Shown here one piece after another: positions 430 through 61,100 of a stretch of DNA of 64,000 nucleotides. Under the pieces are notes generated by a model. It was given only the letters and a program-made list of their open reading frames with translations, searched no databases and had not been told where the DNA came from. The position numbers were made by a program, and so were the translations under genes. The stretch is from Owenia fusiformis (Eukaryota; Annelida; Polychaeta; Sabellida; Oweniidae), in the NCBI GenBank assembly GCA_903813345.2, contig CAIIXF020000009.1, positions 27,318,740 through 27,382,739 on the forward strand. Direction: 5' to 3'. Each line of letters starts with the position of its first letter. Positions within the stretch are counted from its first letter, which is position 1.

Positions 430-552
430 TGTTTAATGGAGTGTGCATTTCCACATTATTGTGAAAAGTAATGAACCATTCATTGTTGATTTAAATGTAT
501 TATGACCCTGAGTTCATTGTGAGTAGTAATGAACCATTCATTGTTATTTTAG
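430..552 (+). repeat. Partial tandem copies of the following exon
   Basis: Two diverged copies of the start of the 553-624 exon occur just upstream with a spacing of about 57 bp. They share the motifs TTCATTGTGA and AGTAATGAACC with the exon. The copy at about 497 has lost the AG acceptor and carries an in-frame TGA, so only the last copy is usable. The rest of the first 430 bases is AT-rich intron with nothing recognised. Confidence 0.7.
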
Positions 553-624
553 GTGTATTATGGCCCTGAGTTCATTGTGAATAGTAATGAACCGTTCATT
601 GCTGTTGAACTTCCTAGTAGACAG
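553..624 (+). CDS. PTPN13: PTPN13-like exon preceding the FERM domain
   Basis: A 24-codon exon between an acceptor (TTTTAG, 547-552) and the donor GTATGT. It reads VYYGPEFIVNSNEPF and ends PSRQ, in phase 0 with the next exon. PTPN13 has a short basic lead-in just before the FERM domain, which fits. The sequence upstream at about 455-540 is a diverged partial copy of this exon that lacks a usable acceptor. This exon is less certain than the FERM exons because no diagnostic motif falls inside it. Confidence 0.65.
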
Positions 625-3600: not shown

Positions 3601-6600
3601 AATTCAGCCCGAGTGTACTAAGCACAAATTATATCAATACATCTCTCTTCATTTTTACTAAATATCTCTACATTTACTATTTTAAAAAAAAAATTCAGCT
3701 CTTAATTTTGGATATTTTACTTTAGAAAATCCTGAGTCACACATACGCAAAAAATGTAAAATGTAAAAAATGTAAAAATGGCATAGCATTATTACATACA
3801 TTAATGATATTCTAGATTTTTCTGTTTTAATGATTTTCTAATTTAGTAAGGGTAATTGAAGGACATAACACTGCATAATACCTTGAATTATACCACTGAC
3901 ATGTACTCATCCCATTAGCATTAGCCCCTTTGTTGAAATGAGCCAGGCTATGTGTAACTCGTTCTTTGACTCCAGGCATGACACAACACGCCATCTATTC
4001 TATCTGCAACTCAGAAGAGATATTCTGGAGGAACGTTCCCAGATCACACCAGAACAGGCAATAAAACTAGGTGAGAATTGTGGGATTGCATTTCCTCTTT
4101 AGACTACTGGTGCCTTTACCAGTACTCATGTTATCATTTTAACAGATGTTGGACTTTTGTCTTATCTTTTGAAATGAACGTTTTATTTTAAGCTTTTTTA
4201 ATAAATTAGAATTTAAAAATAGTATAAGAACTGTTTCCTTACAAGAGGTGCAGTACTGTGCAATGTACCACTAACAGGCAGAATGTTGGAGTGTCGGATC
4301 TCAAACACAACCAAACTGCTCTCATATTCAGCACTATGTAGACCTTGCTTTACCTTACACTATAGGTGTTGTACATTCAGAATACGAGGACTGTGATGTT
4401 GGAGCTCAAACGCAACTAAACTATTGTAAAATTGCGCATTTTGTTAACATAACTCTACACTATACAGTGTTCACAGGATTTTTTCTCAAGTAGGTGCAAA
4501 ATTCTCATTTTCACAATTCAGACCAAAATTGGTCAAAATATGTTAATTTTTCTCATTTTCAAGTGGACGCAAATAGAATTTCAGGTGGGTGCAAGCTTAT
4601 ATTCAAAATCTCAGGTGGGTGTCGGGCCCACTTGCTTTAATGCTGGGGAGATCACTGCTATAGGTGCTCTAGCTATAAAGGCAGAATATGGGACTATGAT
4701 GTTGGAGCTCAAACGCAACCAAACTTGTCAAATTGAGCACTATGTTAACATTACTCTAATTTACACTATAGGTGCTCTAGCTGTACAGGCAGAATATGGG
4801 ACTATGATGTTGGAGCTCAAACGCAACCAAACTATTGTCAAATTGAGCACTATGTTAACATTACTCTAATTTACACTATAGGTGCTCTAGCTGTACAGGC
4901 AGAATATGGGGACTATGATGTTGGAGCTTAAAAACAACCAAATTATTGTCAAATTGAGCACTATGTTAACATTACTCTAATTTACACTATAGGTGCTCTA
5001 GCTGTACAGGCAGAATATGGGGACTATGATGTTGGAGCTTAAACACAACCAAACTATTGTCAAATTGAGCACTATGTTAACATTACTCTAATTTACCCTA
5101 GGTGCTCTAGCTGTACAGGCAGAATATGGGGACTATGATGTTGGAGCTTAAACACAACCAAACTATTGTCAAATAGAGCACTGTGTTAACATTACTCTAA
5201 TTTACCCTAGGTGCTCTAGCTGTACAGGCAGAATATGGGGACTATGATGTTGGAGCTCAAACGCAACCAAACTATTGTCAAATAGAGCACTATGGTAACA
5301 TTACTCTACATTTACTTTATGCTATAGGTGCTCGATCAATATGGGGACTATGATGTTGGAGCTTAAACGCAACCAAACTATGATGTTGGTGCTCAAACGC
5401 AACCAAACTATTGTCAAATAGAGCAATATGTTAACATTACTCTAATTTACTCTAGGTGCTCTAGCTGTACAGGCAGAATATGGGGACTATGATGTTGGAG
5501 CTCAAACGCAACCAAACTATTGTCAAATTGAGCAGTATGTTAACATTACTCTAATTTACTCTAGGTGCTCTAGCTGTACAGGCAGAATATGGGGACTATG
5601 ATGTTGGAGCTCAAACGCAACCAAACTATTGTCAAATAGAGCATTATGTGAGCCAGAGAATCATACAGCATTTGGGCAGTGTTTATATCATGGACAATCT
5701 ATCTACCTCTCACTGGGAAAACAAAGGACTTCTTGACCATGAGGCAGAGATGGACTTCATATCAGTATGTTATTTTATATCAGTTACAAATTGGCTATGG
5801 AAGCTGCTATGTGCTCTACATGTATATGTACATGTAGATGGTTCACTGTAAATGTAAAAAGAACAGAATTTGTTGACTCGCTTTGGCCATTCTGAAGAAG
5901 AATATTTCCACATTCTATAGTGTCATTTGAGACCTACACATTGCATTATTTTCAGGCCGATAAGATTTTTTAAAATAAAATTTTGATCATATTCTGAATG
6001 TGTAGGATTGAAGTTAACATTCAAAATTTCAAATGTCATCAAGGTTATTCAGTTTTAATTTGAATAATAAGTTATATTTTATCTCAACGCATTATTGCTT
6101 ATAAAATGGATCTTAATAATTAATTTTGCCGTCATGGTTGAGATCTGTTGAGTTGTAACTTTAATAAACAAATGTCACAAATATTTGTTCAACTTCAAAT
6201 TTATCGAAGCAAAACCATTGATGGTTAATATTAAAACAAACAAGTAGTTGTTTATTACTGCAATAACATTTCCATTTCAAATGTCATCTATTTGTTTCAC
6301 ACGTAAGGTTTATATGAGTTGGCTACTATATTTAGCAAATATTTATGTTTCGCATTTTACTCGCAGGCTTTTATGAAAACACCAGAATATGGCATACACT
6401 TTTACCGGGTGTTCCGTAGAAAGAATGAAACATCCAGCCCCCTGTGGGTAGGGGTATGTAGCCTGGGGGTATTGACAGCAGAGACCAGGGGTGGGCATAG
6501 AATTATCACCCACAAGCACTCATGGCAGAATACTCAGAAATTATCCTTCAACAGAAGACGGTTCAGTGTGTTGCCAAAATCTTCAAGTGGGGCCATGAAA

Positions 6601-9600
6601 CTGACTAAATTAAGCTATTATACAGATAGTTACCGCAAGTAAGTTGTTTTGACTTCTTAAAATTGTCATTTTAAATGCTAAAATGCCATACACAAATGGC
6701 ATGCTCGTTATTTGAAGCCAAAGAAGTTAAATGTTGAATAATGGTATCATTCATGTGTTTTTGTTATAAGAGGCACTAGCACGTTACCTTTTCATCTTCG
6801 TCATATTCTTGAGATGTTCCCAATTATTGCGTGGCTATTAGAGCACTGCTGCATATTATTATGTTGTAAATGACTCTTAACAATACACAGATTGAAATAA
6901 TTACTGCTACCCTTGATTTAAGCATTAGTCATTTTAAAAGTTAATATGACCTGATACTTGAATTGCTTTAATGTAATGTTGCTGTGTTCTAAATAATCTT
7001 TTGTTCTTACGGGAATGGCATTTTTCATGTTTCACAAGTTTGTACTGATCACTTGTTTTATTCATTCAGGCGTCATCCTGTCAGTTTTTCTCCCTCTCTA
7101 TCACATTTGCGTACAGCCATATTTTCTTCTTATTTCTTTTACCTTGTGACATTGAATATTTTCAGGGGTCAATACTTGCTACAGTTTGCCACATCTCACC
7201 ATGTGTTTCACCTTAAGATGCGGGCAAGAGCACAAAGCTTTGAGAGGTTTCAACCAAACAATGGCCACCAACAAGGTATGACACACAAATTTTGCAATGG
7301 TTGTCCCATGAATTTAAAGCATCTAGTGAAAGTATAAATTGTTCATGAATTATTGTTTATCTTAGCATACAACTCAAACACATATTGTTCAAATTGTTCG
7401 TAAATCATTGTGAATCTTAGCATACAACTCAAACACATATTGTTCAAATTGTTCGTAAATCATTGTGAATCTTAGCATATAATTCAAACACATATTGTTC
7501 AAATTGTTCGTAAATCATTGTGAATCTTAGCATATAATTCAAACACATATTGTTCAAATTGTTCGTAAATCATTGTGAATCTTAGCATATACTTCAAACA
7601 CATATTGTTCATGAATCATTGTTTATCTTAGCATATACCTCAAACACAAATTGTTCATGAATCATTGTCACAGTATCTTAGCACATGAATCAGACACAAA
7701 TTGTAAATGAATCATTGTGTATCTTAGCACATAAATCAAACACATATTGTTCATGAATCATTGTTTATCTTACCATATAATTCAAACACAGATTGTTCAA
7801 ATTGCTCATGAATCGTTGTGTATCTTATAGTGGTGCAACTCGCAAGAAAAATGCTATTCGAGTAGAAAGTGTGAAAATGCCACTGTAAAATGAGGGAAAA
7901 ATTTTAAAAAAATAAAAAACTCACCTAGTCGACTGTTTGAAGACCAAATAGATACAATTTCTTAGTTTCTTCTATATGTTATTGATGTTAGATATAGTTT
8001 GTATCAATTTAGTGAGAATAAATGTAGTTATTCATGCCATAATTGTGTTTGTTTGTTTGTTTTTAAATATTTTCATTTTGTTTCCGGAATCGATACTTTA
8101 TTTCGTTCATTGCATACAAAAAAATCATCATTCCCGGGGTTTAAAACACTTCATAATAAAACATGCCTACTCGAGTTTGAAAAAACGTACTCGAGTAACT
8201 ATCTTGGACAGGTTCAACGAGTGAGTGGCGAGTACTGGCATTCGAGTTGCACCACTAGTATCTTAGCACATGAATCAGACACATATTGTAAATGAAAGCA
8301 TTTCTTCAGCAGAAATTTTGTTGTTAACGAAAATATTTAAAGAATGTATTCTGATTGCAGAATCCCCTGAGCCTGTTCAAAGTGGAAGTCAGGTCCCTGA
8401 TGATACTAGGCGACCACGGTACAGTCAACAAGAGTACAGTGAACAGCCAGATACTCTCTCTCAAGGTGTGTGGATATTGTATACATATTCTCGAACTTCC
8501 TATCCGAGTTTGTATTGTCTGTCTCTTAAACTACATCTTTCTTCTAATGTGATGACCTAAAGCCATATATGATATACTCCAACCAATCCCAAATTTGCTT
8601 TCTCTCTGTAAACAGCCATATCTTTTTTTGTACTGTGATCTCATTCACCAATGTGGACTTCTTTCAGATAATAAACTAGTACTCTTTATTTGAGATAAAT
8701 ATAGTTTCATATTGATTTCTCATCTATGATCTTCAATATATATATATATAAGGGTTATGTACTGGGAAGTTTTGGATACAGGGTTTATCCCAAGGGAAAT
8801 ATATGTATCTCCCGAGGGACTGCAGGACCGAGGGAGAAACAGATATTTCCTGAGGGATAAAATCTGTATCTGAAACCGACCGTACATAACAGATGTATTA
8901 CATACAATCCAACCTATTCCATGACATATGCTTACTCCCCTTATTTGGAGTAATTGGCAAGTCTAAAAAACACCCCTTTATAAAAAAGTGGACTGGCCCA
9001 AGTGGCCAATATCGATCCCCAACTCATTATGTATTCATATTTAATTCTTGCCACGTAGGAGTAATTGGAAAATTTTTCAAGTCAATATTTATCGTACGAT
9101 CTATTCACTCAACAAATTTCTGTTACTTATAAGTCAGAATTTGTTTTTTGAATAGAGAGTATCATAGTCATAACATTAGTCTAGTATGGCAGAACAGGGC
9201 TCTATTCAGGGTGAAATTACTTCTGAATTGAACTTGAACGGTCCCTCGACCTCGTCAACTTTGACCGGGAATGAAGTGATAAACGACGTCTCTTTGGCTA
9301 CCACATCCGTCACAGATTATGTCCAATCCTTAGTGGAAGAGGCGGTGACTAGGAAAATGGCTACCCTTGGAAACAGGCCACCAACGAGACCTCCTTCTGA
9401 CCGTAGAAGCCCGTCTTCAAGCTATTTACACAACTCGGAATACTCGCTTCCGAGAGAGCAGTCCCCCCGGAGCAGTAAGAAGGCCGTAGAGACGGGAAAA
9501 CGAGGTAACGATTCGCACCGAAATGACACCAAATTTCGTGACTACAACTATTCCGCCACACACCACGTGGACGTAAGTAGGTCAACTTTTCGAAATCGTT

Positions 9601-12600
9601 CAAGATCTCCCGTTTCTCAGCTTAGAAGCCCTTCTAGATTGTCTCACCACTCCTACTCTCACACTAATAGACCCTCTGATAGTTCGCCGAGTAGGATTTC
9701 CGGGACTTCACGTCAGGGAACTCAGAATTCACGATCTATTATCAACAATTTTAGTTCCAAAATTTCACAATCTCAAAATTCAGATTCTAAACCTCGTATT
9801 TTGGATTCTGATGACAACGAGCCGTCTAAATCTAAGTCCTCTGAAGAAGAAGCGGTCTTGTTAGTTCGTTCCTTATGGGATTCAACCATATCAGCCTTAG
9901 AAATTGACCAAGTCAACAGCTCCACTAATTCTAAAGAATCTTTGACTAGGGTAGCTCTCCAGAAAGTTGATGAATCTTCAGTCACTAAAGCTTCATTACC
10001 TTGTCCCCCAGTGTTCCATCAGTTGGTGCAGAATATCAATAATCAGATCTCATCTGCCACTTCCGGTTTCAACACAAAGGGAAAACTCTTCAGAATCAAA
10101 TCTTCAAATTATAGATTAGCCAAGGGAGATGATTCAGTCGTACGGCCCCTCAAACTCAATAATTCACTTGGAAACTTAGTCCCAAATGATAAAACCTTCA
10201 GTGATTTCTTCAAGAATGCTGATACTAAAACTCAACTCTCCAATAAAAACTGGAAGGGTCTCGAAGAGAACTTGAGGGCTGTCCTTCAACCTTTGGTGTA
10301 CTCAGAGTGGTATATAGGTTCTGTTTCAAAGTTAGTTACCCAACTCACAGCACACTTATCCAACAACACGGATCCACTAGTTACCCAGTTGTTAGATTCC
10401 ATGGGCGATTTACTCCTTAGGGGTTCGACAGCCTCTGTTACTGCTACTGAAGGTATTCTCAAGACTCTCACCAACTCAGCATTACTTCAACGTGATCTGA
10501 TTCAAGAACAAGTACCAACACGCTTCCGCGAATCTATGAGGGTACTACCAGTTGAGCATACATCTACTACTTTGTATCCAGAGTCACAACTTAAAGATTT
10601 GGTTGACTCAGCCTCCTCAAATCTGACAAACCAAGCACTTGTTACCTTGGCCCAGTCCAGTTCTAGATCTAGTAAAGACAAAGACAGGTCCCAACGCCAA
10701 TCCAGGTCTGACTACAGGAAGAAATCTTCTAACAAAGATTGGTCCAAATCACAAGACAAATCCAAGTCAGATTTTCGTGATTCCAAGAAGAAATACGACA
10801 ATAAAGGTGGTAAGCACTTCAACAAAGACAACAGATTCTCCAAGAAGTGACCATTCTATGATCCCAATCTTCACAATTCCTCCATTTCCAGGACCTGTAG
10901 GGGGAAGATTGATGTTTTTCCTTCCGAATTGGAAGCTGTTAACGGAAGATCCGTTTATACTGAAGATGATCCAGGTAGGATACATCCCACAGATGAATTC
11001 AACTGTGACGTTATGCACCGAACCAAACCAGTTCGAGTCTTCAACATCGAGCAAAGCAGCTCGTTTCAGCAGAGTGGTAGAGGACCTTCTGCAAAAGAAT
11101 GCTGTAGAAGAAGTTCTAAACAGACATTCTCCAGGGTTTTACAGCAATCTATTCTTGGTCAAGAAGAAGAATGGAGAAGACAGACCCGTCATCAATTTGA
11201 GAACTTTAAATCAAGTCTTAATAGTTCCCAAATTCAAAATGGAAACAGTACAGCAGTACATGACCTCCTTCCAACAAGGCGAATGGGCAGTATCCTTGGA
11301 CCTTCGGGATGCTTATCTTCATATAATGATGAAAGAGAACTTCCGGAAGTATCTCCGTTTTGTCGTCAACGGGAAAATTCTGCAATTTCGAGTACTCCCT
11401 TTCGGTCTGGCAACAGCACCGATGATTTTCACCAAGATCCTGGAACCCCTAGCCTCATTCTTCCACAAGCTCGGGATAAAACTCCACCGGTATTTAGACG
11501 ATTGGTTAATCCGAGGAGCATCGCCACAGGAAGTCTCAGATCACCTACGGATTGTGATGACGGTGACGGAAAATCTTGGCTTCATCATCAATCACAAGAA
11601 ATCGCAGTTGATTCCGTTGCAGATCTTCGACTATGTAGGTGTACGGTGGGACCTTCATCTAGGGATGTCCTATCCCCCCCAGGACAGAATAGACAAAATT
11701 CTACACCTAACAGACTGGTTCCTCACAGAAAGTCGAGCAACAGCCAAGCAGTGGATGTCTCTTCTGGGATTACTGGCATCAGCAGAGAAACAAGTCCCAC
11801 TGGGGAGATTGCACATGAGGTTCCTCCAACAATGCCTGTCTCAGAATTGGTCTCAACTCAGAGATCCATTGGACAAGATGATAACAGTAGATCGTACTGC
11901 AAGATTGGACCTGTTGTGGTGGAATCAAGGCCAGCATCTGGAGAAAGGGATGACTTTAGCTCCATTTTCACCAGAAGTGACAATATTCACAGATGCTTCA
12001 ACAGCGATGTGGGGAGCTCATATGGATCTGAACATATCGAAAGAGTGCTGTGGAAACTGGTCCCAATCAGAATCCAACAACCACATAAACTGGCTGGAAC
12101 TAAAAGCCATACAGAAAGCCCTTCACCACTTTCAGACTCACCTCCAAGGAAAGATGGTGTTAATTTGTGCAGACAACACAACTGCGACAACCTACCTCAA
12201 CAAACAAGGGGGAACACAGTCAGCAAAACTGACAGAGTTATCTCGACAGATATGGTTATGGGCCGATTTACATCAAGTCCGTCTTCGCGCAAGACATGTG
12301 CCAGGTCGACTGAATCGAAGAGCAGATCTGTTGAGCCGGGGAAATCAGATAGTTGCGACAGAATGGTCCTTACATCCAGCAGTTGTCAAACAGATGTTCA
12401 AGATATGGGGAACTCCAAATCTAGACATGATGGCGACATGCTACAACAACCAACTACCAGTGTATGTCTCACCAATACAAGATCAAGCAGCTTGGGCAAC
12501 AGACGCTCTATCCCTAAGCTGGCAAAATCTTCATCTGTACATCTATCCCCCCATGCCAGTGATAGGATTAGTTCTACACAAGATAAAGGATCACGACTGT

Positions 12601-15600
12601 TTAGCTCTAGCAATCCTTCCAAAATGGCAGAATCAGCCGTGGTTCCCAGAACTATTGGATCTTCTAGTGGACTATCCAAGGGAAATCCCCCCATTGGAGA
12701 AACTTCTCAAAATGCCAAGAAGTCAGATCTTCCATCAAAATCCAGAACTTTTCCATCTTCACGCTTGCAAACTCTCACGAAATCTCTCACTCAGAAGGGT
12801 TTTTCAACACAAGTGTCAAAAAGAATCGCATCAGATGCTAGAAGACCTTCCACCAACAGAGTCTATGATGCCAAATGGAAGAAGTTCTCTATTTGGTGTT
12901 CTGAGAGGAATCTGGATCCCTGCACAGTCTCTGTTCCAGAAATAGCTGACTTCTTACTTTATCTTCATTCAGTAAAGAAGTTAACAGTGAGTACCATTGA
13001 AGGTTATAGAACTGTCATCAATCAAGTCCTTCAACATTCAAGTGGCACATCACTCTCGTCGACTCAAGAAATCTCTGATCTGATCCATTCTTTCAAATTA
13101 GAAGATGCTCAGCCTAAAGATCTGATGCCTAAGTGGGACCTAGTGTTTGTACTACACGAGTTAACCAAACCTCCCTTCGAACCAATGTCGACAGCTGATC
13201 TCAAACACGTATCGTGGAAGACACTTTTCCTTCTACTGTTAGCTTCAGGGAAAAGACGTTCTGACATCCATGCCATAGACATTAGGCGTATACAATGGAC
13301 TAGAAACAACTTGGAAGCGGTACTTTTCCCTTTTGTTGGTTTCCTGCCGAAATCATTGAATTGCGCAGAAGGACAGTCCAGATTCCAACCAATCACTATC
13401 AAGGCTCTAGCTAATTTCGTTGGAAATGAAACGCCAGATAAATTCTTATGTCCTGTGAGGGCCCTAAGATATTATCTTCAAGCCACAGTTCCTATCAGAG
13501 GAGTCAGGAATAGACTTTTCATCCCCTTCAAGAAAGGATGCAGTTCTGATGTACACCCTAACACTCTCTCTAGTTGGGTGAAACAACTGTTGAACTATGT
13601 CTACAAGAATGCCTCAGAAGAAAGCAAGTTACAAGGGAAGATACGACCACACGAGACAAGAGCCATATCTTCCTCACTAGCTCTACAAGCCAATGCCTCA
13701 TTAACAGCACTCTTCAAGACCTGTTCATGGGCATCCCACAACACCTTCACAAGTTACTACCTCAGAGATGTGACAGTAATGGAGAAAGGCATGCACAAGC
13801 TGGGCCCGGTGGTACTAGCTGGCACTCTCTGCAACTTTTAGACGTAAGTGTTCTTCACTCACTATATATCTGCAGATGGATTCACGTGGGAAGCTTGGCC
13901 TCGACTGTTTTGCAGAAGGGTTCAACTCAACTAGCTTGTGACCTGGACCCTTGAAGAACTGCAACGGTTACCTCGTTTGGTTTAAACGGCCCTTTCTTGG
14001 TTAACCAGTCTCTATTCATAGGAGTTGGTCATTACCCTTAAATGGCTAAGACTGCTCACTCTGATAGGACATAACAGTCTCCAGTTGGACATGTAACAGC
14101 CTCCGTCTTGGATCCAACTAGCAGATGGGGGTAATGGTACATGTACTATTCTTTGGGTGACATCTCATTAGGATGGTAATATAGTTCTTTTGTACTTTTA
14201 GTAACGAGGTCCCCACCTCCTTAACTTTTTATTCAGCATATGTCATGGAATAGGTTGGATTGTATGTAATTGAGAAATTTTACCAGTAAATTTTCTATTA
14301 ATTACAATACAAACCTATTCCATGACCAGAGGCCCACCCAGCCTCCCCGCCTTTGGGAAAATGGAGGTTATTTATTATTTTGTTAGCGTATTAAATATGA
14401 ATACATAATGAGTTGGGGATCGATATTGGCCACTTGGGCCAGTCCACTTTTTTATAAAGGGGTGTTTTTTAGACTTGCCAATTACTCCAAATAAGGGGAG
14501 TAAGCATATGTCATGGAATAGGTTTGTATTGTAATTAATAGAAAATTTACTGGTAAAATTTCTCAATTCCATACCTACCGAGGTTCTAGATACATTATAA
14601 CTCATAAAGTTCCAAATGTATAAGCTTGTTGTTTCCCACATAGGTGATGTTGATGATGCTGAAGATATGGTTGACTACTTCAATGATGACCTTGACAGCT
14701 ATGAAGAGAGTGACCAGGAGATGCCCAATGATGACCAGATGGACATACATGAGGTTCAGAACATTCAATATTTAATAAGTTAAAATGCATGTCATATGAC
14801 TCAATATGTTGTTTTCAATAAGTTAAAATGATTTTACACAAATTGATGATATTACTCCGTATGCTAATCATGATGTTTCTGAAAATGATGATATTACTCA
14901 ATAGGAAAAACATGCTTTTATTCAAAATGATGATATTACTCAATATGCAAAATATGATATTACTCAATATGCTAAACATGATGCTCCTCAAAATGATGAT
15001 GATATTACTCAAAATGTGAATCATTATTGTATTGAAAATGATGATATGACTAAATATGTGAAACATGATGTTACAAAAAATGATGATATTACTCAATATG
15101 AAAAATATGATATTACTCAATATGCTAAACATAATTTACTCAAAATGATGATAATATTACTCAAAATGTGAAACATGATTGTATTGAAAATGATGATATA
15201 ACTCAATATGTGAAACATGATGTTACTAAAAATGATGATATTACTCAAAATGTGAAACATGATGTATTGAAAATGATGGTATATTATTTAATATGTGAAA
15301 CATGATGTTACTGAAATTTATGATATAAGTTAAAGTGTAATGTGACTCAAAATGATGATATTACTCAATATGGTAAAATGATGTTATGCAATATTTCCAG
15401 GTGTCAAATGACCAACACCACGAGCCCAATAATTCTACCAAGGCAAGTCGCACCAGTAAATACTCAAATCGTACACCTATGTCATCTCAGCGTCCCCCTT
15501 CCAACACAGACAGCACACCCCCAGAGCCACCTCAGCGTAGCAGTGCCTCCCATTATTACACAGAACCTGAGGGGGCATATGGAAGACCCAAGGGGGCACA

Positions 15601-18600
15601 CTCTAGACTGGAGGGGGCACACCCACATGCAGGTCTTCATTCTTACAACCAAAGAGGTCATGCTCCAACCTACGAGAGCCCCATGAAAACACCCAAGGCC
15701 TATGTAGTTGGTATGGAATATGTGATTTCATTTTCTTTGATTTGAAATAGATATCATTAATTTATCTTCAAGCCTGTAGTATGTTGTAATGTGAGATGAT
15801 TGGTTGAAACTTTCCCTTTACTAAATAACATTGATAAATAACATTGAACAAATAGTATTCTATAACATATTGTTCAGTAAATTGTTTGTAGAAAAACAAA
15901 GCATTAATCTTATAATTATAACTAATATGGTTATAGTATCCTCATCCTCCATAATGTGTAGCAATACAAGGTGTCTCAGAAGTAAAATATGATATTATAT
16001 AATTATTACCACCTTGCCGGGCCAGTTCTAGGGCTTTTAGTGCTAGTTTAGAAGGCATTCATTTTACTATATCGACCTGAGCAATATGTGACGTCATAGT
16101 GACGGTCAATATTGCCAGTCAAGAATGCCTTCGGTCCAATATTTCACTATATTGCCCTTTGATATGATGTTATTGTACTATTATCCCAGAGGGATATAGA
16201 GAAGCGCCATCCATCCAGCCAGCCATCCTTCCATCCAAATAAATTCTGGTGCCATTTCTTGCCCTTCTCTGCTCAAATTTTCAAGATGGCTGCTGAATTG
16301 AAATGGCCACCATTTTTCATGAAAAATATCATTTTGGATAACTAAAACACCAGTAGTCAGATCTCATTTATTGATGTCATACGGACATAGGACAGTTAGG
16401 AATCTGGTCAAGATGGCTGCAGAATTAAGAATGGCTGCCATTTTCTGGGAGAAGTTGGTCAAAATTTTACAGGCAGAATTGGTATGAAAGGGTATGAAAT
16501 AAAAACAGAATGATGAACTGTTTTCATTTTGAATTATATTTTTATTTCTTGTGTAGAATCTGTGTTTATTTAGTACAATGAAAATTCTTTTTTGAAACTG
16601 CTAGTCATTCATTTGTCATGTTTTATTTCTTGTCAAGTTTTATTTCACAGATGTATCTGTGATTAAGTGTACATTCACGATCATGCCATTTGTAGGAATC
16701 TGGTGCCCACAGAATATGGCACAATTGGTTGACTTTGGCGCCCTGACCATGCACCCATGGTGCGAAAGACATTAGCTTGGTGTCAAATGATTCTCCACCT
16801 ATCCATTGCCATTCACCATTTATTCTTGTTCCACCAGTAAAGAAAGATTCCTCATTAGATCCTGGCCAGTTCAATCCCTTCTGTTTGATTTCACTGTATA
16901 TGAAATTCAATTCAGCTTGTGTTTCTATATCAACCAGGTTTGCTCCCATGGCCATGCAGAATGAAAGGGCATTATACCAATTTGTTGGCTCTTCAATCAC
17001 AAAATTGTAGCATGAACCAAATTGAGCATTGTAGGTAAAACTTTTAGGACAGGATTTCTTCGGTACATCTTCAATAAAACAACAAAATTATTTGCCTTCA
17101 ATTTAACCTAAATACTTATTATTCCATCGAAAGTACTTCAGGGCAGTAACCCAAATACAGTTGGCCCAAAATCATTTACAGTAGAACCTGTTTATCTGAA
17201 CACCTGGCTAATCCGAACACCTTCCAATTTGAACACTTTTTTTCGGTCCCATTTTTTCCTCCCGTTGACTCCCATGTTAAAAAAACCTTGAAATCTGAAC
17301 ACCTCCTAATTTGAACAGTGAACAACCAGATTTGAAAAAGTGACCTGTCTAATCTGAACATTTTTATCAGAAATCAAATGTCTGGACATTTCAATTAAAG
17401 CCACATATTGAGTCAATGTTATAGTTGTTATTTATCTTTACATATATACAAATGTAATCAAAGAACCAATTGTCCTAATTAACTTATTTAGTCTCAGTGA
17501 CATCCCTAATTTGTGGAAAACAACAGGATGTTTTGGAAAGGTGTGAATACAGGAGTTAATTGGTTTATCCTATTAGAAAAGAACTGAATGTTTTATTTTT
17601 GGATAAGAGGAAGGTGTGAATCAAGAAGATAATTGATTTATCATTATTGGAAATTACCTGGATGTTTTTGATTTGGATTAAGAGAAAGGTGAGAGTCTGG
17701 GAGATAATTGGTTTATCCTTATTGTAAATTAACTGGATGTTTTTGATTTGGATTATGAACAGGTCTTAACTGTTTTATATCCCATGGGTCTGTTATGATA
17801 GCTAACATTCAATCAGTAAATGTTTTATAATCACAAAGACAACACAGACGCCATTTGCAGACACGATTATATCACGAGAAGGAGAAAAAATTCAACTTCG
17901 TAATATTCGCATACATCTGACATCCTGAATGCCCTTGATATTTTGAAGGATTATACATCATCTCGAATGAACACTCATGAAAAATTATTTTTACTTGAAG
18001 AGGATATCTACTCAAATATTGCTAATGCTAAAAGTGCCAAGAAACAAACAACAATGAAGGACTTTTTCAAGCAAAAGTAAAGCAGTGCTATATAACCATA
18101 ATATGGGATAAGCCATTTGATAAGCATAAGATTTCCTACGAGACTATCATATACTTTTACAGTGTATTACAAAGTTTTTGCCAAAATATAAGAGTTATTT
18201 TTACTAAAATGATGAAATTGTTCAAAATATAAATAAAACATAGCATATAGGCTATAGGCCTATTGTAGAATTAACTCATCAAACCCATGTATTGTTTTCT
18301 GTCTTAGTATTAAGTGTTCAATATAGTGCACTGAACAATGAAAATCCCCTCCCCCCGACCCAAAAAATCCTTGAAATTTGAACACCTGCCAATTTGAACG
18401 CTTTTGGCTGGTCCCATGGGTGTCTGGATTAGACAGGTTTTACTGTACTAGTATATTTTACACATACTGGGTGTCCCAAAAAATGAGTCGCTTTTTGACA
18501 AGAATTATCTCGGCAACTGATAAACCAAATTCACTGAAAATTTGAACAAAATAGCCTTAGAGTATCATTAGCAAGTTGTTAAAATATATAAAAGATCAAG

Positions 18601-21600: not shown

Positions 21601-24600
21601 ATGACTTCCTGATACAACTTCACTGCTTGCCATGTTGGCATTCTGCCATAATCCCCGGGAATTAAGTGATGTGACGTCATTTAAGTGAATACCACTATAT
21701 ATTCACTATATATATCAAAATGATGTCATTGCAGGGGAATACACTCTACACACATTTTCAAAGCAGGGGTACATGGAATGTACCTCTATGTATTTTTAGT
21801 CACATGGTATCTGATTTGCCAATGAGAGAACAAGTATCACAGCATGGAAATATTAACTAGTATTATCTACCTTGTTTCTTGCACTGGTCCAATTGGCGTT
21901 TCATATTGGCAAGGTTTGTTCTACATCTGTTCAGATCCCTCCTGCAATTAGCAAGCACTTCAATACTACATTCTAACAACATCACCATGGTAACCAGTAC
22001 ATATGGTAGGTTGTTCTTCATGTTTCCTCTAGGGTGACTTTGTCGGTGATATGAGTTGATGTGATCCGGCTGAAATGTTCATGGTTTGCAAAATTGAAAA
22101 ATAAATATGTTATTGTTATGTTGTTATGCATCACTTCGATTCACTTGGCATATCCAACAACAAACACATAAAAAAGTTTTATTCAACATTTTAAGATTTT
22201 ATTGCCACATTTCAAATAAAACAAGTGGAATGTGCATATGCCATTTTAATTTCTGTTTAATGTTTGCCTATTAATGAGTATTATATCATCCATAACTGAA
22301 GCTCTAAATTATGAGAATTTTATGGGCTTATGTCTTATGAGTAAAGGACCTGTAATCGAGAAGGTATTTATGATATGAAACCATGTCACATCATGGGTAC
22401 AGATTTTACCAAAGACAATATTACTATAATAATACATACTATTTTGTTATGTTCAAAATGACAAGTGATTTGGGTGGGGATTTGCCATCTTCTAGTTTCT
22501 GTTTCTTTTCAAACATCTCAAACTGTTACTTTTTCCCTTTCAACTATGAGCCTAGTTGTATTAAGTTTATGGCCATACAGTAGTTGTATTCAACAATTTA
22601 TGGTAACTGTCTTTCGAAATAAAAAACCGAATGATTAACGCGTTCATTTTGAAACATATTTTTATTGTGTAGTCTTTGTTTGTTTACAATCAATGTAAAT
22701 ACCCTTTTCTTACTGCTAGTCATTCTCTTGTCATGTTTTATTTCTTGTCAAGTTTTATTTCACAGATGTATCTGTGATTAAGTGTACATTCACGATCATG
22801 CCATTTGTAGGAGTCTGGTGCCCACAGAATATGGCACAACTGGTCACTGTTGTTCCCTTGACCTTGCACCCATGGTGCAAAAGACATCAGCTTGGTGTCA
22901 AATGATTCTCCACCTATCCATTGCCATTCTCCATTTATTCTTGTTCCACCAGTAAAGAAAGATTCCTCATTAGAACCTGGCCAATTCAGTCCCCTGCGTT
23001 TGATTTCACTGTATATGAAATTCAATTCAGCTTGTGTTTCAATAGCAACAAGATTCGCCTTCATGGCCTGGCAGAATATAAGCGCAATTGATACCAAAAT
23101 GTTGGCTCTCTCGTGACAAAATTGTAGCATGAGCCAAGATCAGCATTGTGGGTAAAACTTGAAGGACAGGTCTTGGCTCCATCTTTAATGTCTTCAATTT
23201 AACATTAGACTTGTTTTATTTCAAGCGAAATTATTAAAGATATTAAGCATAATGTATTCTTAGCTTGTATTCGCAAATGCAACTAACGCCTGTCAGCTAC
23301 CGGATTAACCTTCTATTTTATGGGCAACTGATTTAAATATGAATAGTACCTACCACTATTCCATCCATACTTAAATTAGTTGGTCATAAAATAGTACTTT
23401 AATCCGGTAGCCGGCAAGTGTGAGTTGCATCACGAATACAAGCTTAATCCCATTGAAACATACCATTGGATAGCATGGAAAATTGGTGATTTTATTTTAT
23501 AAACATCTTGTGTCAAAGTAGGCTTTTTGATAAAGGTGCCATGTGCAGTGAAACCTGTATTACCGACCAACTCTTTCATCTGAGCACCTCTCAATGTGAA
23601 CATTTTTTCTTGGTGCCAAAAGATTGGTATCCATATGGCGAATTGAATTCAACATTGTTATTCTCTGAAACCAATTATTGAAAACATTCTGTAAAAAACA
23701 CAGTCCTTTATGTAATGGTCACAACAATTTAATGTGAAAATTATTTACATAACTGTTTTTGTTAACATTTTTTGTTTTTTAGTGCAATTGTTTTTTGTTC
23801 CTTTCTACCAATTCCTTGAGAATGAAATAAAATATCTTTCTGAACCTTGTTAGAACAAAATAACATATAACATGATTATACAACATTTTCTTAGACCTCT
23901 CAATATTATAGTTATACAAAGGAAAGTTTGGTTCATTTAACAAAAAGTATTTAGTTAACAACTGTAACAAGATCCTTTTTTAAACTACAATATTGAGAGA
24001 CCTAAACATGTTTTGTATATCTCATTTTGTTCCAAAAAGGCTTCGGATTGATGTTTCATTTCATTACGAACATATGATACCATGAACAAAAGAAGTATAT
24101 ATATTTTTTTCAAATAAAATTGCAACCATTCAAAAGATGATCATTAAATTCATGAAGTGTAAAATTTCCTAAATTTTTTGATGACTGGTTTAAGAGAAAT
24201 GTGTGTTCAATTCAATTCGCCATATCGATACCAATCCTTTGCTATCTCATTGACTCACATATTTCAAAAGCAAACACCCTCTAAATGTGAACACCCTCTA
24301 ATCAGAACATCTTTTGCTAGTTCCAGAGGCATTAAACAGGTTTTACTTTACTTGTATGACAATAATGATATAGTATTCTATATATCTACTATTACATACC
24401 TTGATTCTTGTACTGTTCCAATTGTCTTATCAGAATGGCAACGTTTTTCCTACATTCATTCAGGTCGCTCCTGCAATTAGCATTAGCATTAGCACTCCAA
24501 ATCTACTTTCTAACAAAATCACAATGGTAACCACTACATATGCTATGTTGTTCATCATGTTCTCACTTGGATGTCTTTGTCAGTGAGAATCGTTGATGTG

Positions 24601-33600: not shown

Positions 33601-36600
33601 CAGTTGACTAGGAAGCTATGAAATTACTTGTAATTAATCATATAGAGCTCTTAGTCTCATTTCACAATGCAGTAACTGTCATTTGTTTTTTTCATCCACA
33701 GATTCATTATACAGAAGAATGGACAATATCCCATCTCCAGAGGTGCCAGAACGGCGCGTTATTGTCGTTGAGTTGACGAAGGTGGTGCCATATGGTATAG
33801 GGCTTACTATAGTAGGGGGAGAGAGTACCAACTCACTGGATCTGGGAATATTTGTCAAGTCTATCATACCTGAAGGCCCAGCACACAGAGATGGTCGATT
33901 ACAGGTAAATTATTGAAGGTTTAGGTAAATTTTTGAATATTACAGGTAAAATGTAAATCGATTACCTGAGAGATGATTTGTATTGGCTTCGACATACCAC
34001 ATTTGCCTTTTATAATACACTAGAAATTTTCATACCACATTTGACAAATGTTCTTTTCTCAGTAAAGTATGTTTGTTTTAGGTTGGGGATAGAATCATTG
34101 CCATCAATGGCCAGAGCCTTGAGGGGATGGCCCACAATGAAACTGTAGGGCTGATTAAACAGTCCCCTGGAGTGGTTCAACTACTCGTATCTCAGCTTGT
34201 TCCCCTCAGAGGCACCCCATCACCCCTTCCAGTAGTAGGCTCTTCCATGGATACTCACATGGCAGGAAGATCTGTGATGTCAAAAATGGAGACCCCACAT
34301 TCAGGAAGTAATGCAAGATCTCAAAATAGTGCCTATCGCCAACACCAGAGGGCAGAGTATGATAAAGATAATCACACAGGGAATTATGGGAACACAGATA
34401 CGGAAGTTGAAATGATTTTACCTCAGGCAAGAACAATTCCTAAACCTCCACGGAAATCCTCGAAATCCAGAAATTCTGCAGACATATCAAATCAAGGATC
34501 TTTCATGGAAAAACCTCCTAGGAGAGCCCACTCTGGATTTTCATCCCCAAGAAGTAAAGTAGGGGATCAATCTCAGGACATGTCGCAAAATAAGCCAGTC
34601 CCTGTGACCAATCAAAACAGTCTTCCTGAACAGTCTATACCTCCACCTATTGGGTTCAACCAACAACAACAGTCTAAAACAGGTAGGTAGAATTTATGAT
34701 ATTTACCATCATAATATATTGAACAATTAGGTAACCTATATTGTATGAAAAATGATTCCTGACTTGCTCATCAGTACATCATATATTAATTATATTAGAA
34801 ACATAATGAAACCTTGATTATTTTATTTTACTTCTGGCAAATATTTTAAATTTCGTTTGAGGCGTATGCTTACTTTTTGGGTGGCTTTATCATCCATGCC
34901 TTTGATGTGGCATTTACATGTAGTGACCCTTTGCTCAACTTCAAAATCATCCACCATTATAGCCTACACATATTGGTCACTTTTTATAATAACAACAAAT
35001 AGTTAGCTAAAAGTGAGAAATTATCATTTCCAGGTTATGAGAGTGAAGATTCCTTTGAGAGTGACATAGATGATATGGAGGCTTCATATGGAGCAATGAG
35101 GACATCTATTGATGCAGACCCTGAAGACAATGCATCATCTTCAGATGAGGAACTCCCTGGGTTGCAACATGTGAACCCCTCGGAATTGAAAGAAGGGGAT
35201 ACATATAAAGTGGTGCTTCATAAACTTGCTGGATCTCTTGGATTGAATATAACAGTAAGTGATGTAATGAAACAGTAATATGATGAAATAGTATTAGTAT
35301 ATAAGTAAATAGAGATTATCCTATATGAGGTTCAGGATATTGGGATTATCCCGAGGCCAATATAATATATTTGCCCGAGGGCCGCAGGTCCCGAGGGAAA
35401 ATATATTATATTGGCCAAGGGATAATCCCAATATCCTGAACCGACTATAGGATAATATGTTTATCCCATACCAATCTTGGTCATCTGGTTCACATTGTTC
35501 AATCGTGGAAATATTTTAGAATATTCATGTCCAGTTTTGTTTTCTTGGCCATGGGCGGACTTTCTTGTTCTCTCAAATATTCCCACATTTATTTTCTCGA
35601 ATTTTTTGATTGATTAAGTGGATGCTCCTTCCCTTTTTTAAACCATCAAACAGATCCCAATAGTCTGTGTTTTCTCCATTGTCGTTTACAGTCATTACGC
35701 GAACGTTACAAATTATGAACAAATATGCGAGCGGTGATTATGACGTAGCGGGCAGATATACTATATCTGCCCGCTCGGAGCAGGACGTAAAGCTATATCT
35801 GCCCGCTGATGAAAATACAAGATTTTACAAACCGGCTTTATGTACCTAACACGTCCAAGTATGGGATAAAAGACATTATTACATATAGAGTATACCAAAA
35901 TCACAATCCTTTGGTACATTAAGTTGAATAAATTAACAACAAAAGTGGTGCTATCCAACATTTGATTTGACTTGTTTCTTTAGTTCTTACATGAACAAAA
36001 CTACATAAATGAGGGCTCTATTTGTCTATGTTATTTCAGGGTGGTGTAAATACAAGCGTTAAACATGGGGGTATCTATGTGAAATCCCTTGTCCCAGGAG
36101 GAGTAAGTGACAGGGATTCAAAGATCCAGGTTGGGGATCGTGTACTAGAGATTAATGGCCAGTCTCTAACTGGCTTTACACACAAACAAGCTGTTCAGAC
36201 CCTCAGAGAATCCCCTGATGTCTGTACCCTTTATATGGAGAGAGGTGTCCTGCCAAAGAACTCGAGGATGGAGACCCCAAAGCCAATGACCCCCAGCCCA
36301 TTCCCATCTACTTCAACTCCTACACGTAATACTACAGAGGGGACATATTCTTCCCCAGCATTGACAGTAGGAAAGGAAGCCGAGTTTACTACTTCAGATG
36401 CCACCCAGTCTTATCCAAGTCAGGGCCCTACACCATCAAACTCAAACCCTGATACTGCTCAGCATACTAAACAACCTGAAGGAGCTACACCCAAGAGGTC
36501 TTTGTTTGTTACCCCTGGGGAATCCAGTTATTCCCAAAGTCCTAATACAACAGTAGAAGAGGATATCTCATCATCTAAATATATTCCCAGCCAGAATGTG

Positions 36601-39600
36601 AACAAAGTGGACAAGCCTAGTAGAGTTGATGAACATGAGAGTTATATTCCAACAGGGCTCAAGCCCAACAATATGCTCAGTGATACCAGAGATGACACCA
36701 GGACAACCAGAGGTGACACCAGTCCTACCAAAGGTGACATCAGTACTACCAGAGGTGACATCAGTACTACCAGAGGTGACATAAGCACTACCAGGGGTGA
36801 AGCCAGTAATAACAAGACTGATCCTAAATCTGTGCAGGATGATTCAAATGAGTTCAGTTTGAGTCTTGGTGACAGCTGGGATTCAAGTCCTGATTCTACT
36901 CTTAATGATTCATTTATGACTGATACTCCAAAAGATATCTCTAACCCACCCAATATACCCCCTTTACCTTTGTCCCCACCCCCGGGCACGCTACCTCCAT
37001 CCCAAGGGAGCCTACCCCCAGCTTCAGATATTGACAAACAGGACGTATCTGATAAACCCCGTGAAGCTCCTGATTTTCCATTTGTTACAAAAGGTAGGCA
37101 CTCTACTGTTACCTTAATAGTTTTTCATAATATAGTTCCAAATTGGAAAATAGCTATTCAATTTTTGATAGGCAGAACTAACTTCATGGGAAAAGCATAC
37201 TTTTGAGATAAAATAGATAAAAGTTAATTTTTAGAAATATCCTGATTTGTGTGACTTCAACATACACTGTACTGTTATTTCAGAAAACACCTTTGATGTG
37301 CCTCTACAGAAAGGAAGTCAGGGATTGGGATTTAGTGTTATCGGAGGTAGAGGGAGCCACTCTACAGACCCGTTGCAATGCATCGCTAGAATACGTAAAA
37401 TATTTCCCCTTGGTCCAGCTGCGTCAAGTGGCAAAATGGAGGTTGGCGATATAATCCTGGAGGTCAATGGGAAGAAGCTGAAAGGGCTTTCTCACAATGT
37501 AAGTAGCTCATTAGTTAACAACTTTAGTGTTCCGAACAGTTAAATAACAGCATATACATTGCCACCTGCTTATGTTTCTGAGCATTTAGCTGATCCATTT
37601 TTCTTTAATGAGTATATTAATTTTGAAGTTTGCAGAAATACCCCAAAAATGTATTCCCAATATAGTTAACTCCATATATATATATTTAAATACCTTTTTA
37701 GGAGACAGTAACTCTACTACGTACTACACCTTCTGAAGTGCACCTTTTATTGAGTCGTCCTGATCCTGGTGTGCTACCCCCAATTGCTGATATCCATGAT
37801 GTTTCCTATGATCGTGACATCATGTCATCTCCAGTGAAATCACCACCAAGTCAATCGGTGGTTCAGTCCCCATTATTAACCCCGAAGACAAAAGAGAGCA
37901 AAATTAACAATCAGACAGCGAACAACTCAAAATTGAACAATATTAGTTCTCCTGGTGGAAGTGCGATGACATCAACTTTAAATTCTCGCAATGAAACTCC
38001 AACTTTAGAGAAAACGGAATCTCAGTCTGTTGGTCAAGAATACAGCCAAACACAATCAAGCTTTGCTTCAAATAAATCTGTTGTCAAATCTCCTGATAAG
38101 AATTCCCGTCAAAGCTCTTTCCAGAAACAATCAAATGTTAACAGTGAAACCGAATCTGATTCTGAATTTGAATTCAGTCTACCTGATTCATCTGTTACTG
38201 CAACTCCCCAAACTCAGAGTGAGGCTGCGACCCCTTACACTCGAAGTGGCGCTGTCACTTCAGAATCCAGCTTTGAGTCGTCATATGATGAATCAACAAC
38301 AACTACACCAAGGCTTATATCACGAGATGCTAGCATGAAACAAACAACAAAGACTCCTTCTAATAGCACCAAAAATGATGAACACGCATCAACGGAAAAG
38401 GTTATGTCACCTATTCGGACCCCTGGTGCTAAAAGTGCAACAGATTCAACTGCAAGTTTTAATGTGATATTTGATGACAATAAGGAATATGCGAGGGATG
38501 TAATGACGCCATCTTTACATGATAGTAGCCAATCGTATATTGAATCTCCACCACAAGGGGGATTAAAGTACGATGATAACCTAAAACCAGGGGTAAGTCA
38601 TTTTTGGAATACACAAATATTTTATTCTGTTGATGTGAATACTTGTGCATCTTTCAAAGGTAACAGTCACAAAGCCTGAAAGAATAGGGGAACATTATGC
38701 AGGAAAGTGACGCATTATTTACTGAGATTAGAATGAAAGTGGTGACATATTGTAATCTCCTCGAGCCAAGGGGTGTAACAAATGGCAGGTGGTGAGATCT
38801 TGCATGTTAATTCCTTGTTGTTCACTGTTATTACTCTCACTCTGATTTGGCCACTATTTACTACAGTAGGCCAAATATAGATGAAGACATGCTATTTTAA
38901 ACATTGCAATATGTCTGTTATAGTGAAAATATAAATAACATCAAATCAAGTAGAATTTCATTTCACAATCAATAGATAAAAATAGATTGGTGAAAACCTG
39001 TAGGAAAAATGCAGATATTCAAACTGGACAATTAAAGTATGCTTAAACTCTGTGTGTCTTTGTAACATTACATTCTAGACTGGGATATGGTGTCTTATTT
39101 CCAAATCACACAGACTATTCGAGAAAAGAATTTTATGAGAAAGACGTGTCAATAATACAGCAAATCAAAAAATCGTCATTGTTAAATTATCAAAGCAAAT
39201 GGTTCAATATGTAATGGATATTTGCAGGAGTTTGAAGTCTCCCTTACAAAAGCAGACAAAGGAGGTCTAGGATTCACAGTAGCAGGGAGTTCTGGGACAA
39301 CAGGGGGCTGCTTTGTCAAGGCAGTGGTACAAGAGCCTGCTCTCTCTAATGGCAGGATTAGACCAGGGGACAAGCTTATACAGGTGACGGATATATATAT
39401 ATATATTCTTAACTCTCAATATTTGTACTTTCAGGAATTTGGTTCAAGGTATTTTTGGTAAAAAAATAAATTCAGTATTTCTTGTTCTTAAGAATTTTTT
39501 TTGATTAATAATGATTTTGGGAAACAGTGTTCCTATTGAATTACCCAAATGCGAGTAGGTAGTTACCAGTTTCACAACCAGGTGGCTGATTCGGGTCAGT

Positions 39601-58109: not shown

Positions 58110-61100
58110 AGGTCACTATTATTCAGCTGTCCATTTCCCCGTTCGAGAGCCATAAGTTTCAAAATCTAACATGGCTCTCGAAGTGAGTAAGATTTATCAA
58201 AATAAATCAAAGTTATACAGTAAGACCTGTATAAAATTAAGGTTTTATGAAAAATACTAAGTTGATCATGGTGTTGCCCTTTGCATTCTTGAATTATGAA
58301 TGATAAAACGTCCCAAATCACAAAATAAAATAAATAAAAAGCTATTCACAAAGTTATGAGAGAGTCAGAGGTGCTATTATTAAATCTACGAATCCTGGGA
58401 TGACCTCACTTATTTCGTAATTTTACGAACTGTTTGTTACTTCATAAATCTTACAAGAATGCAATTTGAAAATTGAACAATGGACTTACGAAAGTTCGTT
58501 ACTATGAGCGATACAAAAAAGCATCCCAGGTTATAGAAATAAAATTCCTAATTTGCGAAAATAAGGTGTAGCGCATCTGATTTGACAAATTTATATCGGA
58601 CCAACTTATGGGTTTATCATTGACAATATAATGAAATAATCAACAAAACAAGGAACTACCAAAATTGAACACAATTGATTTCACAACCATTGGGGAGAAT
58701 CCTCGTCAAGTGACAGGCGCCCACATGCCTTGAACTGAACCAGGCCGCCAATCAGGTTCAAGAAAACAAATTGAACGGTCAATCAGATCCCGGTTTAATC
58801 AAACTTTAGATTGAATTAATTTCTGCAAAAGTAATTTGATTGGTCAGAACAATTGCAAAATTAGCACTGACCATTGAAAGCAGGGGATTTGGGACTTCTT
58901 GGTTGGTAAGCAGATAGTTACTCAATATGCGAAAATGACCAGGGGGGGTCTTGATTGTGCTGTCCTATGGTATAGATTCTCTACATGTTAATGCCTCTTT
59001 TATGAACTACACCTGATGGAGATTTACTAGGCCTAATTGTTTGTACAGATTGTGGTGTTAACTCGTTAAGCCTCGTTAGCTTTAGACAGAGACATAATAA
59101 AATGGGTTTTATGAGATGCTTATTCAATTATGATGGTCCCTCTGGAGTCTGGGCATATTGCAGATTGTGATTCACTGTTGGTCTATTGAACATACCTTCT
59201 TTCTTCCAAATCTGGAGAATATGTTTTGACAATAGAACAGTTCAATATCTTTTCTGTAGAATTCCACTTTTTAATGCACATCAATCTGCCATGAGGAAAA
59301 CCTAAATAAGATGTGAATATTTTTCCATTCAGTAGATTTAGAGGATGAAGAGATTTGGCAGATTATATAGTGTATACCCAAAAGGAGTATTTTGGAAGAA
59401 AACCCATAAAACACCAGGGGGTACCATTTTTTGTGAATACTAATTTTCTGTACCCTTGTTGTTAAGAAGTGAATACAACCCCCTAAGTAGGTCTTAAAAA
59501 ATTGGAGCCATAAAAGCTTATTTTCAAAAATATTATAAGTTACAAATTGTGGAGATAATGAATTCCTGCCATTGGATGTTGTTATTTAGTCTTACATATT
59601 GCACCATGTTCTAAAGACTCCTCTCCCATTTACTTCACCTCTACAGGTGAGATCAGATGGGCTTGATGCAAGACTAAACAGAACTAATATTTACAGATCA
59701 ATATCACTTCTAGTTTATAAAAACTTATGTCACTTAGCTCGCCTCTCTAAAAAGGACACTGAAACTGTTATTAGGACTTTTGCTCCCGGACTATATGTTC
59801 TCATGTTCGTTCTAAGAGTAAGGGTAAAAGAAAGTAAAAATATATGTTGATGTGGGTTACAAATATGCAACATTGATCCCTTCATTTGAAAACTTAGACC
59901 AGCTGAACGTGTTCCCTTTCATTTTTAGTATATGTGCCTGGGGTTTTGAACTCCATAAACTAAGAACAGTTTAGTAACTAAAAAAGATCTGTTGAACGAA
60001 ACAGGGAGTTGTCCTTTTGAAGATGACATCATCAACACTTTATAGTGAATCACTCAAGTCAAAGCTTTTGAGTAGAACATGATATGTTAGGCCAGGTCAT
60101 AATAAACTTATGTTTCATGTTTTTCTAGGTAGAACATGGGGGTATTAGGCCATGCTGTCATCTTGATTTTTGATATGTTAGGCCAAGTCATAATAAACTT
60201 ATGTTTCATGTTTTTCTAGGTAGAACATGGGGGTATTAGGCCATGTTGTCATCTTGATTTTCAATGTTTCAGTTGTTCCATCTTAACCTTGATGTTTCTA
60301 GAATATATATGACTCCCGACTGAGAAAAAATACAGGAGTTTCACTTTCAGTTTAGAAAGAAAATAGAAAAAATCGGGCCTCCAAAGGTCTGGGGGGGGGG
60401 GCGCTAATAGGGACATGGGCGCCAATTACAGCCAATATGGTATAAGTGAGACTACTGGTGGAACAAATATTTAAACACTATTTAGAAACATTTTGTGCCT
60501 AGCCCTGTGGTATGTATTCGTTGATATAACACATGCTCTGAGGTCTATATTACGATTCAAACATAAAAACTCACCAATTTTTTTCCAATTTTCATTATGG
60601 GCCCCCATTATTATGGCCTGCCATTATGACGTCATGCATTACTCATATTAACAGGTGGAGTGTTGATGAATATATACTGGGTGAAATGTTGACTTAATGC
60701 TCACATTTTATAGAAGACGTGAATACAGTTATGTTCGAATCACCTATATGACCACCTAGATTGATCAATACTGGTATATGTCATTAATTAGGTAAGGTAC
60801 TAGAATATTGAATATTCAATATTTTAGAAATTTTAAAGCTTTTGTCTTAGATCATGATTCTTCTCTGAGAGCTTGGCATTTATACTCTATACTTAAATGA
60901 GGGATAATTATTTCATATAGCCTGTATCCAATTAAAAAGGTCATGGCTGCATTTTGTGGCTGTAAAGAGGATAGTGTTTCTAGCTGATGGTGATGCAGGG
61001 TAGTTATGATGGATCTAGCCACTCTTAATCTAATTCTTGAAGAATCAATAGCAAGCAGAGTGGAATACAAAGCCAATTTGTAATGAAATAGCTGTTATAA

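Follow-up and report, generated by a model that had tools for sequence, protein, structure and literature searches.

In the window, the 64,000-nucleotide stretch of the Owenia fusiformis genome analysed here (contig CAIIXF020000009.1 of assembly GCA_903813345.2, positions 27,318,740 to 27,382,739), the start of one FERM exon recurs many times in the intron that precedes it, each time together with what resembles a 3' splice site. The locus raises the question of how such a series of apparent acceptors arose and what it means for the splicing of its host gene. The first-pass annotation had regarded it either as a burden on splicing or as an acceptor-selection device that tunes the amount of productive mRNA.

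The host gene lies on the plus strand of the window. Pfam matches place FERM N, central and C domains on its joined exons, a PDZ domain on an exon at 33.7 kb and a tyrosine phosphatase domain on exons at 43.9 and 47.6 kb, a domain order (FERM, PDZ, tyrosine phosphatase) from which the gene is here called PTPN13-like. The joined exons including the FERM exon at 5565-5764 match FERM_M with E=2e-27, and acceptor 5565 alone yields a protein aligning to ezrin and other FERM proteins. Within the 3' splice region of this exon, the motif TTAAC, picked out by eye only, may represent a candidate branch point. The elements of the genuine exon are as follows (a bar marks the splice junction):

3976-4070, plus strand: preceding FERM exon, followed by a phase-1 intron, donor CTAG|GTGAGA
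5541-5564, plus strand: genuine 3' splice region TAACATTACTCTAATTTACTCTAG, the 24-bp intronic part of the repeat unit
5565-5764, plus strand: genuine FERM (central domain) exon, 200 nt, acceptor TTTACTCTAG|GTGCTC, donor TCA|GTATGT
5565-5649, plus strand: 85-nt start of the FERM exon, forming the exonic part of the repeat unit

The repeat unit of about 109 bp consists of the last 24 bp of the intron and the first 85 bp of exon 5565-5764. Since it spans the intron-exon boundary, every additional copy resembles a 3' splice site with the 85-nt exon start attached. TRF identified a 109-bp unit with 6.6 copies at 4658-5381 and 2.5 copies at 5377-5649, a second repeat-finding pass returned 11 copies (at least 60%) over 4282-5702, and the pattern AG|GTG occurs at 4248, 4366, 4664, 4772, 4882, 4993, 5102, 5211, 5328 and 5456 in addition to the genuine 5565; it also matched 4494, within an inserted dispersed repeat. 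All three approaches thus bear out the first-pass annotation, according to which the exon start and its acceptor are reiterated about ten times upstream, and, as it had also stated, the second half of the exon and its donor are absent from every upstream copy. It had correctly recognized the exon start as the repeated part, the length of which is 85 bp rather than the 75 bp given. Eight of the ten upstream copies are close to the exon (head identity 0.93-0.98) and two are decayed (0.82 and 0.86); the usual unit length is 108-111 bp, the units starting at 5211 (117 bp) and 5328 (128 bp) being longer. From distal to exon-proximal, the array is composed of the following units:

4248-4365, plus strand: oldest decayed copy, head identity 0.82, heavily gapped
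4366-4477, plus strand: old decayed copy, head identity 0.86
about 4474-4658, plus strand: dispersed repeat, about 185 bp long, inserted where the array is older
4664-4771, plus strand: decoy unit, 108 bp, one G lost
4772-4881, plus strand: decoy unit, 110 bp, one G lost
4882-4992, plus strand: decoy unit, 111 bp, carries TAA, CACTATAG-type tail
4993-5101, plus strand: decoy unit, 109 bp, carries TAA
5102-5210, plus strand: decoy unit, 109 bp, TAA where the exon has CAA
5211-5327, plus strand: decoy unit, head identity 0.98, holds ATG|GTAACA, a weak donor-like site
5328-5455, plus strand: rearranged decoy unit, head partly deleted, extra 30-bp duplication, in-frame TAA
5456-5564, plus strand: most exon-proximal decoy head, 85 bp with identity 0.98, then the genuine splice region

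As the two distal copies are decayed and split off by the dispersed repeat, the distal copies are older and the exon-proximal ones younger. The dispersed repeat occurs at 39 other places in the genome with 86-93% identity, among 40 scored of 2859 candidates. The array itself was found nowhere else when the genome (498.3 Mb in 525 contigs, of which C1-C12, at 31.9-62.2 Mb each, make up 477.5 Mb together) was searched with very common words skipped; the two matches were the array itself and its own old copies. The GC content of the genome is about 0.35, and three matches to Eryth_link_C, a domain that marks annelid extracellular haemoglobin, lie close together on C6, while a COX1 model had no match; amphioxus has a higher GC content and more chromosomes.

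When the exon ending at 4070 is joined to any of the ten upstream acceptors and read to donor 5764, a premature stop results in all ten cases. Use of acceptor 5456, for example, would produce a 309-nt exon with a frameshift and a stop. A TAA (units from 4882, 4993, 5102 and 5328) or a lost G (4664 and 4772) is present in six of the eight close copies, the occurrence of both changes having been annotated before. The copies could act as decoy 3' splice sites, and use of any of them would destroy the reading frame. At the three codon positions, 11, 13 and 28 mismatches separate the copies from the exon, and this lean to the third position may stem from a few shared changes counted repeatedly.

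Two further boundary arrays were found in the PTPN13-like gene, one of them on the donor side:

458-601, plus strand: second acceptor-crossing array, a 58-bp unit present 2.5 times over the acceptor of exon 553-624
33897-33950, plus strand: donor-side array after the PDZ exon, 20 bp, 2.6 copies, AG|GTAAA repeated

The former repeats the acceptor and the head of exon 553-624, and its one scored decoy acceptor reads AA, not AG. Because of these two additional arrays, the genome was sampled. The first sample comprised 190 matches (23 of 25 listed for FERM_M, 88 of 99 for Y_phosphatase and 79 of 92 for Myosin_head) with 550 bp on each side, giving 112 stretches with 193,969 bases and a GC content of 0.347; the second comprised 55 of 60 Cpn60_TCP1 matches in 24 stretches with 51,655 bases. 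Left out were two FERM matches, both in the window, 11 PTP matches (three in the window, six in long open frames, two on C11), 13 myosin matches (12 in a cluster of alternative exons, one more on C9) and five chaperonin matches (three in long open frames, one at a contig end, one full of stops). At C9:37986009-37994334, twelve Myosin_head matches with near-same model positions (about 18-84) follow one another on the strand that also carries the myosin heavy chain exons at 37.977-37.983 Mb, an arrangement suggestive of a large set of mutually exclusive exons.

Arrays were detected by self-comparison and TRF and then read. In the first sample, tandem copies cross an exon end in 15 of 190 matches, eight times at the acceptor (L025, L026, L027, L074, L078, L079, L110, L111) and seven times at the donor (L028, L029, L046, L058, L072, L077, L086). 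The chaperonin sample contains 7 such cases among 55 matches, three at acceptors (L123, L127, L137) and four at donors (L117, L120, L124, L125). Together, 22 of the 245 matches sampled from this genome (9%) are affected, with acceptors and donors contributing 11 cases each, and the cases are distributed over nine of the twelve large contigs. Some matches represent less than a full exon, and many arrays are cut off by the ends of the stretches. Initially, 18 loci were flagged in the first sample and 13 counted, L046 and L078 being added from TRF arrays. Reading led to the rejection of L010 (exon fragment only) and L067 (abuts only), and L034, L049 and L063 were dropped on coordinates alone; L132 (exon fragment only) was discounted from the chaperonin sample. 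Among the accepted cases, L025, L027, L079 and L111 are weaker and were accepted by eye.

Several of these arrays are extensive within the sampled stretch. L110, in a myosin gene, carries 15 decoy acceptors in a 32-bp unit, all with AG, and L077 carries 13 intact decoy donors; ten decoy donors each are present in L058 (all GTAAGT), L086 (nine with GT) and L124 (all with GT). In the chaperonin array L127, at least six decoy acceptors match the genuine acceptor at every position along 52 nt, and each leads to a stop if used. Use of a decoy would shift the frame or introduce a stop at 93 of 96 decoy positions in 15 survey arrays, and the other three positions all belong to L123. In this chaperonin gene (C11:134315-135567) the unit is 96 bp long and each of the three decoy acceptors keeps an open reading frame in phase with the exon; choice of an upstream site would thus insert 32, 64 or 96 residues into a CCT subunit. 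In the L110 stretch (C9:5823549-5824843), the myosin exon with the 32-bp array across its acceptor also has a different 26-bp array at the start of the next intron.

TRF arrays of period 15 or longer cover 7,954 of 119,480 background positions, i.e., positions away from exon matches, in the first sample (6.7%) and 2,670 of 30,388 in the chaperonin sample (8.8%; 10,624 of 149,868 in total), whereas they cross 11 of 380 match ends (2.9%) and 7 of 110 (6.4%), respectively, or 18 of 490 in total; these end figures are lower bounds, since a Pfam match often stops inside its exon. Among the 18 crossed ends, the arrays of L009 and, on the 3' side, of L110 adjoin the exon without entering it, and the count includes the second TRF row of L120 (2832-3119), taken as computed. 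Exon ends thus show no enrichment of arrays over plain intron, and the comparison rules out in both samples that they are hot spots of array formation. A rule against unit lengths divisible by three was likewise rejected, as units of 18, 39, 48 and 96 bp occur.

If decoys were used to a noticeable extent, the resulting premature stops would lead to nonsense-mediated decay, and the arrays would represent a slightly deleterious load under weak selection. Such a burden would agree with the stop obtained from all ten upstream acceptors and with the splice dinucleotides kept in most decoys, and the low share of crossed FERM, PTP and myosin ends (11 of 380 against 6.7% in the background) could reflect purging. 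However, among chaperonin exons, where a load should hurt most, 7 of 55 matches are struck and 6.4% of the ends are crossed, itself a lower bound, against 8.8% in the background. A burden on splicing is regarded as unlikely.

The second suggestion of the first-pass annotation, that the array is kept as an acceptor-selection device tuning the share of productive mRNA, was founded on the conservation of the acceptor. The retention as such is real: AG is present in 10 of 10 upstream copies, both decayed ones included, AG|GTGCTC in eight and AG|GTGCTCT in seven, and for the eight close copies this amounts to 16 of 16 AG bases. When the units are aligned to the exon, 638 of 665 positions match in the heads and 170 of 176 in the tails. 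Among the latter, 22 are self-matches of the reference, and their exclusion leaves 786 of 819 other positions matching. At this rate, 16 of 16 bases would be kept without selection with P about 0.52, so that conservation of the AG beyond the rest of the unit was not found in the eight close copies. Stops and frame losses show up more than loss of AG because any one change within 85 bp suffices for the former while the latter has a target of two bases.

The decoy dinucleotides of the other arrays lead to a similar picture. The decoy scan was ungapped, and as gaps were disallowed only six of the ten decoys of the 5565 array were scored. In the first-sample scan, 11 of 14 arrays, the 5565 and 553 arrays included, had a scored decoy (those without were L025, L111 and the 33904 donor); the second scan covered nine arrays, L046 and L078 from the first sample among them, and L027 and L079 stood outside both. 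With the expected number of intact dinucleotides taken as identity squared, the first-sample scan gave 25 of 26 intact acceptors (21.9 expected) and 39 of 46 intact donors (35.8 expected), in total 64 of 72 (57.7 expected), and the second 13 of 13 acceptors (12.2 expected) and 25 of 32 donors (23.7 expected), in total 38 of 45 (35.9 expected). Over the 20 arrays of both scans, 102 of 117 decoy dinucleotides are intact as compared to 93.6 expected, a slight excess which is not read as selection since the copies are not independent. Within its own unit, the splice dinucleotide ranks at a mean percentile of 0.54 over seven arrays and 0.55 over all 13. Decoy dinucleotides are thus lost at about the neutral rate, with neither purging nor special preservation. 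Together with the AG retention expected from copy identity, the lost decoy AG in the array at 458-601, the equal frequency of donor and acceptor arrays (11 and 11) and the finding that arrays are no commoner at exon ends than in plain intron, this makes an acceptor-selection device very improbable, and the conservation of the acceptor does not support one.

As AG|GTG occurs in each copy, every copy might also act as an acceptor and then as a new donor in a recursive splicing ladder that removes the intron stepwise. The regenerated donor TAG|GTGCTC, however, scores -1.8 against 7.3, 4.8 and 4.5 for three real donors nearby, on a rough consensus scale that is itself weak, the genuine 5764 donor scoring -1.0, and several other acceptor arrays (L026, L074, L110, L078) do without AG|GT, which renders such a ladder hardly credible. 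Tandem repeats are hard to assemble and the copy number could be wrong, but an assembly artefact is scarcely conceivable, as the copies differ by substitutions, deletions and the insertion of the dispersed repeat and the 22 survey cases are spread over nine of the twelve large contigs.

Arrays of this kind have a precedent. The name mirage was given in amphioxus Adh3 to tandem repeats that extend across intron-exon boundaries (PMC3087553). According to the same account, the amphioxus globin gene BflGb6 repeats an intron end and an exon start in units of 150-160 bp with 81-100% identity and its copy number differs between two haplotypes, while BflGb9 has repeats at the other boundary; AG/GT is kept in many but not all repeats, somatic length changes are cited, and RT-PCR suggested regular splicing of the globin and Adh3 mirages (PMC3087553). 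In lancelet PGBD5, 60-bp and 108-bp repeats are described to overlap exons 3 and 4, and two sequences differ in their numbers of copies (PMC3902484). The tandem unit across an intron-exon boundary is common to the amphioxus mirages and the array at 5565; the former are reported in cephalochordates, whereas the latter belongs to an annelid and is known here from the sequence of one assembly.

Other known systems share single features with the array. In human segmental duplications, internal tandem repeats (minisatellites) at exon-intron boundaries can alter gene structure and may cause new introns; in recent paralogs, exons or introns become longer through them or introns are newly formed (PMC2812944). 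In the present array, by contrast, the copies are intronic and leave the coding exon as it was. Intron gain by tandem AGGT duplication (Rogers model) resembles the present case in the AG|GT at the unit edge but makes a new intron, while here none is seen and the array enlarges an existing one. Earthworm metallothionein genes likewise contain annelid intron minisatellites; the available part of their description places these within the first intron and names no exon boundary, whereas the 5565 array spans one (PMC12783039). No annelid mirage was found in the literature, and with partial coverage and few subscription papers this is weak evidence of absence. The kind is hence already known and, under that name and in that form, was found only from amphioxus in this partial search. 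The array at 5565 adds a further member of this kind, in what is probably a new phylum for it, and belongs to a broader pattern across the genome.

We consider it highly likely that the array is a mirage minisatellite which arose as a near-neutral by-product of intron minisatellite growth, and we infer both its neutrality and the use of the exon-proximal site in splicing. Its unit spans the boundary and only the terminal copy, at 5565, continues into the exon body and the donor; acceptor and donor boundaries are both affected in this genome, and many but not all repeats have AG/GT (102 of 117 decoys). The array would have started with a tandem duplication of 24 bp of intron and 85 bp of exon and may have grown by unequal exchange or slippage. 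Selection on the protein would hold only the copy that runs on into the exon body, leaving the other copies to drift. Most likely, splice sites are paired over the exon itself (exon definition), so that its donor would be matched to the closest acceptor upstream and the decoys would mostly be skipped and be nearly neutral. In the simplest account, intron minisatellite growth would ignore exon boundaries, and whenever a unit takes in a boundary its copies would mimic splice sites.

In older work, Reed and Maniatis reportedly observed with duplicated 3' splice sites in vitro that the site nearest the intron's donor was favoured. Such a preference would predict trouble at mirage arrays, and the question therefore becomes testable in living tissue with the arrays described here. 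With about 9% of the sampled matches carrying competing splice sites, the genome offers a natural experiment on how the spliceosome weighs site strength, closeness to the other end of the intron and exon definition. At L127, sequence within 52 nt cannot decide site choice, since at least six decoys are identical there. The published developmental transcriptomes of Owenia fusiformis (PMC9977687) could answer the question of site choice directly. At a frequency of 22 in 245, it is also conceivable, albeit quite unlikely, that decoy copy number forms a widespread, fast-mutating and heritable rheostat on gene output. If so, each added decoy would divert slightly more pre-mRNA into nonsense-mediated decay, and array length would give rise to expression differences between individuals at many loci.

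The window contains further repeats and frames. An intron of the PTPN13-like gene harbours gag-like, reverse transcriptase-like and recombinase-like frames in the ORF list (9180-13841), together suggestive of a putative DIRS-like retroelement. Opposite-strand intron frames at 1472-2203, 16626-17087 and 22738-23139 (all minus strand) comprise one with a fibrinogen C-terminal domain and one with a C-type lectin domain, both by Pfam match, and a second lectin-like frame that resembles the first closely in the ORF list. A 21-bp repeat in six copies (36684-36808) lies in a long open frame of the PTPN13-like gene and encodes a TRGDIST-like motif. At 60080-60261, a 91-bp unit is present twice, each time with TTTTTCTAG|GTAGAAC, in a place with no known exon. 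Finally, a 33-bp minisatellite of about 50 copies at 61284-62909 has several frames open up to 546 codons, as its unit length is divisible by three.
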